Positions 45,380 to 48,300 of a DNA stretch of 64,000 nucleotides are shown here, piece by piece. Position numbers and translations under genes: made by a program. Below the pieces are notes generated by a model. The model did no database searches. It saw only the letters and a program-made list of their open reading frames with translations, and was not told the DNA's origin. The stretch comes from Microlunatus capsulatus (GTDB taxonomy: Bacteria > Actinomycetota > Actinomycetes > Propionibacteriales > Propionibacteriaceae): NCBI RefSeq assembly GCF_017876495.1, contig NZ_JAGIOB010000001.1, positions 2,046,001 to 2,110,000 of the forward strand, given 5' to 3'. The stretch's first letter is position 1. The number at the start of each line of letters is the position of its first letter.

Positions 45380-48300
45380 TCAGACGGCGACCGGCTCGGG
45401 TTCGACGACGGCGAGGCCGTCGCTGCCGGCGTCCACGTCGAAGCTGATGGTGTCACCGTCGAGCACGGTCCCGGCCAGCACGCGTCGGGCCAGCTGGTCC
45501 TCGATCGTCGTCTGGATCAGCCGGCGGAGCGGCCGGGCGCCGTAAACCGGGTCGAAGCCGGTCAGGGCCAGCCAGTCCTTGGCCGCCTGCGTGACCTGGA
45601 CGCTGATCCGCCGGTCGGCCAGCCGGGCGTTGAGCCGGCCCAGGTTGATGTCGACGATCCTGGCCAGCTCCTCGGTGCCGAGGGCGTCGAAGAGCACGAC
45701 CTCGTCGAGCCGGTTGAGGAACTCGGGCTTGAAGGCCCCGCGGACGACGCCCATCACGGCGTCGCGCTTGGCCTTCTCGTCCAGGCTCGGGTTGGCCAGG
45801 AACTGCGACCCGAGGTTCGACGTCAGGATCATCAGCACGTTGCGGAAGTCGACCGTGCGGCCCTGGCCGTCGGTCAGCCGCCCGTCGTCGAGCACCTGCA
45901 GGAGGATGTCGAAGACCTCGCCGTGCGCCTTCTCGACCTCGTCGAGCAGGACGACCGAGTACGGACGCCGCCGGACGGCCTCGGTGAGCTGGCCGCCCTC
46001 CTCGTAGCCGACGTACCCGGGGGGCGCGCCGACGAGCCGGCTGACCGAGTGCTTCTCGGAGTACTCGCTCATGTCGATCCGGATCATCGCGTGCTCGTCG
46101 TCGAACAGGAACTCGGCGAGCGACTTGGCCAGCTCGGTCTTGCCCACGCCCGTGGGGCCGAGGAACAGGAAGGAGCCGGTCGGCCGGTTGGGGTCGGAGA
46201 TGCCGGCCCGCGAGCGGCGGACGGCGTCGGAGACGGCGCGCACCGCCTGGCGCTGGCCAATCAGCCGGGTGCCCAGCCGGTCCTCCATCTGGAGGAGCTT
46301 CTCGGTCTCGCCCTGCAGCAGCCGGCCGGTCGGGATGCCCGTCCAGTTCGCCACCACCTCGGCGATGTCCTGCGGGCCGACCTCGTCTGACACCATCGGA
46401 GCCAATGGCGCGAAGCCCTTGACCCTCTCCAGGTCGGCGGAAGCATCGATCAATTGCTGACTGGCAACGCCAAGAGCAGCCCGCAACTCGTCGACGTAAC
46501 GACCAGAATCCTCTAGGCGAACTGATGCGTTGAGTGCTCGACCGGGGGCCTCTGCTGCCTGCCGCTCGAGATCCAGCTTAGACTCCAAGTCCTTGATCCG
46601 CTGGCGCAGGTCAGCCACTCGTGGCTCAAGCCGGATAGCCACTTGCACACCGTCCTTCGCCAGGTTGCCCTCGATTAGTTCCGCATTCGCATCTGCGAGT
46701 TCGTCCCGGAGCCGAGCAAGGGCAGCACGCTCTTCAGGGGTGATGACGGGAGCTGTCGCCGCTCCTTCCACGTCTTGCTCCGCCAGCCGCAGAGCTTCTG
46801 CTCGCTCTGTTTGATCGCGTTGAGCCGATTCGACATCTCGTTTGGCCGAGGCCACGGCTTGCTCGGCCTCCCGAACACGCCGACGAGCGGACTGCAGGTG
46901 GTCGCTCTCGCCCTGCATCTGGGCTCCGTCGAGCTCCTTCTCCAGGGCCGGGATCTCGCCGTAGCTGATCTCGCTGGCCTTGACGAGGTCGCCCTCACGC
47001 AGGTGCCGCTCGGCCTGGCTGCGCAGCTCGTCGATCTGCTTCTTCAGGTCGCCGACGCGGTTGAGGCCCTGCTTCTCGGCCTCCCAGCGCGCCTCGAGCC
47101 CGCGCAGCTCCTCATGGGTGTTGGCGAGCTCCTCGTCGAGGCGGTGCAGGCGCTCGACGCTGCCCGGGTCGGACTCCTTCTCCAGGGCGAAGCGCTGCAT
47201 CTGCATGCGCTCCACGCTGCGCCGCAGCACGTCGATCTCCTCCGGGGAGGAGTCGATCTCCATCCGCAGCCGGGACGCGGCCTCGTCGACGAGGTCGATG
47301 GCCTTGTCGGGCAGCTGCCGGGAGGTGATGTAGCGGTTGGACAGGCTGGCCGCGGCCACGAGGGCGCCGTCGGTGATGGCCACCTTGTGGTGCGCCTCGT
47401 AGCGCTCGCGCAGCCCGCGCAGGATGGCGATGGTGTCCTCGACGCTGGGCTCGCCCACGTAGACCTGCTGGAAGCGGCGCTCCAGGGCCGGGTCCTTCTC
47501 GATCCGCTCGCGGTACTCGTCCAGGGTGGTGGCGCCGATCATCCGGAGCTCGCCGCGGGCCAGCATGGGTTTGAGCATGTTGCCGGCGTCCATCGAGGAG
47601 TCGCCGGACGCGCCCGCCCCAACGACGGTGTGCAGCTCGTCGATGAAGGTGATGACCTGGCCCTCCGCGTCGCGGATCTCGGTCAGCACGGCCTTCAGCC
47701 GCTCCTCGAACTCACCGCGGTACTTGGCGCCCGCGACCATCGAGGGCAGGTCGAGGGAGACGAGCCGTCGGCCCTTGAGCGAGTCGGGGACGTCGCCCGC
47801 GACGAGGCGCTGAGCGAGGCCCTCGACGACGGCGGTCTTGCCGACGCCGGGCTCGCCGATCAGCACCGGGTTGTTCTTGGTGCGCCGGGCGAGCACCTGC
47901 ACGACGCGGCGGATCTCGGTGTCCCGGCCGATGACCGGGTCGAGCTTGCCCTCGCGCGCCTGGGCGGTCAGGTCGACGCCGTACTGGTCGAGCGCCGAGG
48001 AGGTGCCCTCGGACTCGGCGCTGGTGACCCGCTTGCTGCCGCGGGCCTCGTTGAAGGCCTGGGTGAGCGCGCGCGGGTCGACCTTGAGATCCAGCAGGGC
48101 CTTCTTCACGTCGGAGTCGACGGCGGCCAGGGCGATCATCAGGTGCTCGGTGGCGACGAACTGGTCGCCGAGCTGCTGGGCGCGGTTCTCGGCGTCGGCC
48201 AGCACCCGGGCGAAGGCGCCGGACAGCTGGGGCTGGGCGACCGAGGAGCCGCTGGCCTTCGGCAGCTTGGCGATGGCGCCCTGCGCGGCCGCGTCGACGA

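Follow-up and report, generated by a model that had tools for sequence, protein, structure and literature searches.

The ClpB gene in the 64-kb stretch of DNA analysed here (hereafter the window) is longer than its counterpart in G011, a genome of the same genus and the closest relative in the comparison, by a net 498 bp (166 codons) that lie between the M domain and NBD2. On balance, we favour the reading that coding DNA of foreign origin was recently captured in frame here, at a site that tolerates changes in length, which would give the protein a hinged, tolerated helical arm. An earlier note on this DNA had described a ClpB of 1031 aa, with an intact reading frame and with extra residues at about 521-694, at the junction between the M domain and NBD2. 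Alignment with G011 puts those coordinates right to within a few codons (Table 1), and the frame is open from the ATG and in register at both ends of the insert. Identity between the clpB DNA of G011 and that of the window is 93.7% as far as gene position 1546 and 90.5% from position 2092 onwards, and the G011 linker sequence at the insert site is KELATASVAESALPPMVSEEV. Around the gene, window positions 30306-58274 align to G011 in the same order, except for one 12.7-kb extra piece in G011. This piece, which lies upstream of clpB in G011 (L150/L151 joined, 17693-30423) and is absent at window positions 48606-48695, has a host-like GC content of 75%.

Table 1. Features of the clpB locus in window coordinates; residue numbers are those of ClpB.
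Feature	Position	Strand	Remarks
clpB	45380-48475	minus	intact open reading frame, 1031 aa counted from ATG
Catalytic and pore strings of ClpB			GEPGVGKT 207; IDELH 278; KYRGEF 251; GPTGVGKT 773; LLDEVEK 843; GYVGYEEG 820
M domain	46916-47263	minus	residues ~405-520, alignable with relatives
Segment not aligning to G011	46385-46929	minus	545 bp in the window, 47 bp in G011
Inserted peptide	46397-46915	minus	residues ~521-693, third-position GC ~61%
Predicted helix 497-572	46760-46987	minus	last M-domain helix and first arm helix; AlphaFold2
Predicted helix 580-604	46664-46738	minus	in the arm; AlphaFold2
Predicted helix 609-687	46415-46651	minus	in the arm; AlphaFold2
Palindrome TTGAG-N9-CTCAA	48534-48552	plus	upstream of clpB, HAIR-like
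Second palindrome TTGAG-N9-CTCAA	48580-48598	plus	upstream of clpB

The composition of the insert differs markedly from that of its surroundings. A hand count had earlier put its GC content at 61% against 72% in the flank, and its codon use had been read as foreign. Both observations hold up on computation, with a GC content of 62.8% for residues 521-694 versus 71.2% and 70.9% on the two flanks, and a third-codon-position GC of 61.5% in the insert versus 98.1% and 97.9% in the flanks. Taken over the first, second and third codon positions, GC runs at 73/43/98% before the insert, 81/46/61.5% inside it and 73/42/98% after it. The change is sharp, falling at residues ~515-530 and ~690-697, and when segments of 522 nt are slid along the whole 64 kb (n = 2116) the lowest GC value, 0.625, is that of the insert. 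Of the six reading frames across the insert, all but the ClpB frame contain stops, and base-shuffled insert DNA was open in 20 of 5000 trials. Judged by its codon use the insert appears to be recent, and its DNA would be of foreign origin. The carrier is one genome only, as would be expected of an assembly artefact, but an artefact is scarcely credible for a single-contig genome in which the net gain is an exact multiple of three, stop-free and in frame at both ends.

The earlier note had placed the relatives of this ClpB in the Geodermatophilaceae, which proved mistaken: the host belongs with Microlunatus (Propionibacteriaceae), and the named ClpB relatives come from Microlunatus/Friedmanniella and other Propionibacteriaceae. 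The relatives that we measured lack the insert, and none of them bears it at host-like GC. Our survey of the linker started from 68 loci (60 named loci from an N-domain scan and eight stretches from genus genomes), with ClpB frames in 67 (none in L070); five were dropped as incomplete and 62 kept, four of these repeating a genome. The stretch from YGxIP to DIA measures 33-40 aa in all 62 measurable rows (58 distinct genomes), compared with 201 in the window. Within the genus, ClpB was found in 18 of the 19 other genomes, the matched halves being no more than 24 bp apart in every case, and G015, which is 95% complete, gave no ClpB-strength match. A query made of the M domain and NBD2 found matches in 387 of the 391 genomes sampled from the order; among the matches listed, all cross the linker without a large gap, and G015, G359, G029 and G381 gave only weak matches (E 1e-25 to 1e-27). 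Re-examination of low-scoring genomes of the order showed that 16 of 17 cross the linker and are at most 42 nt (~14 residues) longer than the query, and that in G020 the match ends before the linker. Some ClpB proteins of family f3 of the order (L127, L131, L132, L133) differ at the end of the M domain and are slightly longer in the linker. Two genus genomes encode a second ClpB-like protein that shares, in pieces, 52-60% identity with the window ClpB (G016:C283, G017:C73), and another stretch of the genus matches the C half of ClpB with one in-frame TGA (G004:C11:656875-657888).

Trees of the two ClpB halves, for which 22 relatives were chosen out of 67, both group the window with G011 (100/99 and 96/94 support), which places the gain of the insert on the branch leading to the window or in a close lineage outside the sample. 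The same pairing of both halves speaks against an allelic exchange by recombination across the linker between the host gene and that of a foreign ClpB already equipped with the arm. The right edge of the insert, MVSDEV (with codon TCA at S696), is compatible with such an exchange in that MVSDEV also occurs in other relatives (e.g. L063, L089, L097 and L100). However, no armed ClpB was found in the relatives, order, class or phylum samples, and we regard an exchange of this kind as rather improbable.

Where the captured DNA came from was approached by several routes. Profile searches with the insertion alone, which the earlier note had suggested, returned weak likeness only, mostly to coiled-coil proteins, with no clear match in Pfam, NCBIfam, PHROGs or PADLOC. 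The best of these weak matches were at E 0.027 in Pfam, to SMC_prok_B in NCBIfam (17.5 bits versus a cut-off of 567), to phrog_3910 ('transcriptional regulator', E 6e-5, query residues 66-166) and to PADLOC JetC (E 9e-4). A search of solved structures with the insert gave nothing below E 0.1. In overlapping genome samples, and with the own genome included in each count, the insert protein matched two of 57 relatives, three of 391 genomes of the order (with ~8-9 candidates scored per genome in the rows listed, a depth at which distant relatives could be missed), 13 of 393 genomes of the class at E 0.01 and one of 396 genomes of the phylum (again with ~8-9 candidates scored per genome in both). 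The non-self matches at E ≤0.001 in these searches were two, an SMC-like frame in L008 and a region full of overlapping frames in L047, while the best non-self rows of a small pooled tblastn were a plasmid stretch (E 1e-4), L050 (1.8e-4) and L008 (4.5e-4). Phages gave no tblastn match and five short blastn matches. Plasmids gave three short blastn matches and one tblastn match (E 0.7), at the plasmid stretch just named, which is a linear-plasmid end with no listed gene in a plasmid gene table that is itself incomplete. Pattern scans reach close relatives only, since they require exact words of 8 residues; they found nothing in genome contigs with the insert, and nothing in viral contigs with the whole insert or with one half; the other half gave one 20-residue match (L152) without further likeness around it. 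There was thus no convincing relative of the insert among the genomes, phages, plasmids and viral contigs searched. The idea of a horizontally gained coiled coil, put forward in the earlier note, draws support from the foreign codon use, the position at the junction, the intact frame, the predicted helices and the absence from the relatives examined, but these searches yielded no donor.

An origin within ClpB itself was also considered. The insert shows a weak collinear likeness to the M domain (one BLASTP comparison, E 0.007) and a match of 37% over 117 columns to L089 (E 0.047, shared flank included), as might be left by a duplicated and diverged M domain. The best-domain profile score of 5.0 bits, reached by 8 of 499 heptad-register shuffles and set beside 4.2 for the reversed insert, is borderline, whereas the whole-sequence score of 1.8 bits lies next to 1.9 for the reversed insert and was equalled or exceeded by 60 of the 499 shuffles. 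The profile thus fails to tell the insert from its reversed form, with one of the two scores borderline, and the insert is not clearly recognisable as ordinary M-domain sequence. It also has no Trp and no YGxIP motif, and its third-position GC is unlike that of the host M domain. On such sequence evidence an M-domain origin appears unlikely, and we would give a duplication very little weight; a remote ancestry shared with coiled coils of the M type keeps a small probability.

A third kind of source would be a protein-coding mobile element of the Rickettsia palindromic type, an intron or an intein. In-frame insertions by such elements are known and, like the window insert, they place a foreign peptide within working genes, but the accessible part of the account in PMC10969869 describes elements of ~150 bp that are repeated, whereas the window insert measures 498 bp net and is a single copy. 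At the DNA level its own genome holds no second copy, and the other 19 genus genomes contain only three short matches to it (E 3.6e-4 or weaker). Ten short inverted pairs are present; two of them, of 10 and 13 nt, come close to an edge with one arm, and none bounds the insert on both sides. No Rfam match up to E 1 was obtained over 46200-47100, which argues against an intron, and the insert has no Cys, a residue whose absence tells against an intein given the known features of those elements. We consider all of these sources highly improbable.

Under our preferred reading, a stretch of about 0.5 kb that codes for protein, taken from a foreign source whose third-position GC is lower, would have entered the clpB linker in frame after the split from the G011 lineage. 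The route would most likely be illegitimate recombination, for example end joining. We found no diagnostic end-joining scar at the insert. A short direct repeat joins the insert edge (46902-46917, plus strand) to NBD2 (46302-46317), with 15 of 16 nt identical, and may be due to chance; a second (46423-46433 and 46936-46946) has 10 of 11 nt in common. Repeats of the 15/16-nt kind touch 16 of the 2535 positions of clpB without the insert and, since they occur elsewhere in the gene, we attach no weight to the junction repeats. An end-joining part may exist in the host, as a LigD-polymerase-like gene lies at 50613-51572, 2.1 kb upstream of clpB and between clpB and the dnaK-hspR cluster, although it scores below the curated cut-offs (206.2 versus 214.7 bits for TIGR02778). 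As to the site, the ClpB M domain of Actinomycetota has length-tolerant positions, as stated in the part of PMC10149685 available, and a linker of variable length is common to those proteins and the window ClpB; the window arm stands apart from such sites, so far as that part describes them, in its 166 residues, foreign codon use and predicted helices. That part states neither where exactly the sites lie nor any arm of comparable size. Because the linker varies in length, both there and in our survey of the order, we infer that the arm is at least tolerated.

Structure prediction, also suggested in the earlier note, returned long helices and, at both edges of the insert, low confidence. AlphaFold2 was given the full protein in an alignment with 47 other sequences, and its overall confidence was modest (mean pLDDT 74.3, pTM 0.47). 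Over residues 521-690, 15 of the 17 ten-residue blocks have a pLDDT of 64-83 and the two edge blocks reach 57 and 55, with residues 522-524 and 688-690, at the very edges, below 50. These edges may be hinges, but this reading of the model is not secure, since five other segments also fall below 50, including the conserved loops 207-212 and 817-826. The arm helices rest on one sequence, as none of the 47 aligned sequences carries the insert, and helix may be over-predicted here. The hydrophobic moment at period 3.5 peaks at residues ~520-574 and ~600-664 and is weak between them, in keeping with the heptad-like character described in the earlier note. A protein built in this way would bear, at the base of each M domain, a hinged arm with two or three long helices, up to six such arms per hexamer, presumably outside the ring. 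Any effect would most likely be steric, through an altered swing of the M domain between its repressing belt and its tilted, DnaK-bound state.

It is also possible that the arm is adaptive, a coiled coil that binds a partner (an aggregate, a cell structure, DnaK or a co-chaperone) and that was favoured by selection because it recruits or regulates ClpB. The predicted position of the arm adjoins the DnaK-binding M domain in the AlphaFold2 model, and the frame is open across all 166 added codons. Extra domains of Hsp100 proteins can serve as binding platforms, according to the section of PMC8129007 accessible, and ClpG/ClpK and the window ClpB are alike in being Hsp100 proteins with an added domain; ClpG, as described there, has an added N1 domain and a shorter M domain, whereas the addition in the window follows a full M domain. 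However, no homologue was found in which a conserved surface could be demonstrated, and the arm was found in one genome only. A selected partner-binding role is possible but is not favoured over that of a passenger, and we remain doubtful of the adaptive explanation as a whole. More speculatively, and with some reluctance, the window protein might be viewed as a disaggregase just after domain gain, in which the hinged arm already recruits or gates the hexamer via the M-domain base. If true, the window would supply a naturally occurring ClpB that has a second regulatory arm. Among the papers listed in our literature searches, no title or abstract opening describes a ClpB arm at the junction of the M domain and NBD2, and we found no paper on ClpB in Microlunatus. 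A highly conserved AAA+ machine would here have accepted a foreign-looking domain of large size; a close sister protein represents the 'before' state, and comparison of the two bears on the load that the M-domain base can tolerate and on whether new Hsp100 domains begin as accidental captures.

The remainder of the protein looks like an ordinary ClpB. It matches TIGR03346 (NCBIfam) with 1243.2 bits against a curated cut-off of 1232.1, split over two stretches, and shares the N domain, two AAA modules and M domain of that family, the long M domain being of full length and aligned with relatives. The strings that we take to be the Walker A/B sets, pore loops and arginine finger each occur once. 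Its best solved relative is PDB 6dju (848 aa), presumably M. tuberculosis ClpB, and solved ClpB/Hsp104 chains match it in pieces either side of the insert. The window gene is the sole ClpB-strength match in its own genome, where the other Clp match, a 928-aa frame that is 52-55% identical in pieces, is presumably ClpC. Between the window and G011, dN/dS comes to 0.07 in the N half of ClpB, 0.16 in the M domain and 0.15 in the C half, and 14 amino-acid changes fall on the window branch versus nine on the G011 branch (outgroup L059). These ratios show purifying selection on the flanks, which may predate the insertion on this branch. The protein probably still folds and probably still works as a disaggregase, as far as retained activity can be judged from its sequence. 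The palindrome TTGAG-N9-CTCAA occurs five times in the 64 kb versus 0.24 expected, with two copies upstream of clpB and three upstream of dnaK (regions 48534-48598 and 55910-56010), and all five are exact in a search that allowed one mismatch; we take these boxes to be HspR sites (HAIR). HspR, DnaJ, GrpE and DnaK are encoded at 51642-55928 (NCBIfam; GrpE scores below the cut-off of each model shown), and a nearby DnaK-GrpE-DnaJ-HspR cluster is a feature common to this locus and ordinary ClpB. Elsewhere in the window, a 280-aa frame on the minus strand, separate from ClpB and from the other Clp protein, contains two Clp_N repeats above the Pfam cut-off at 33954-34430.
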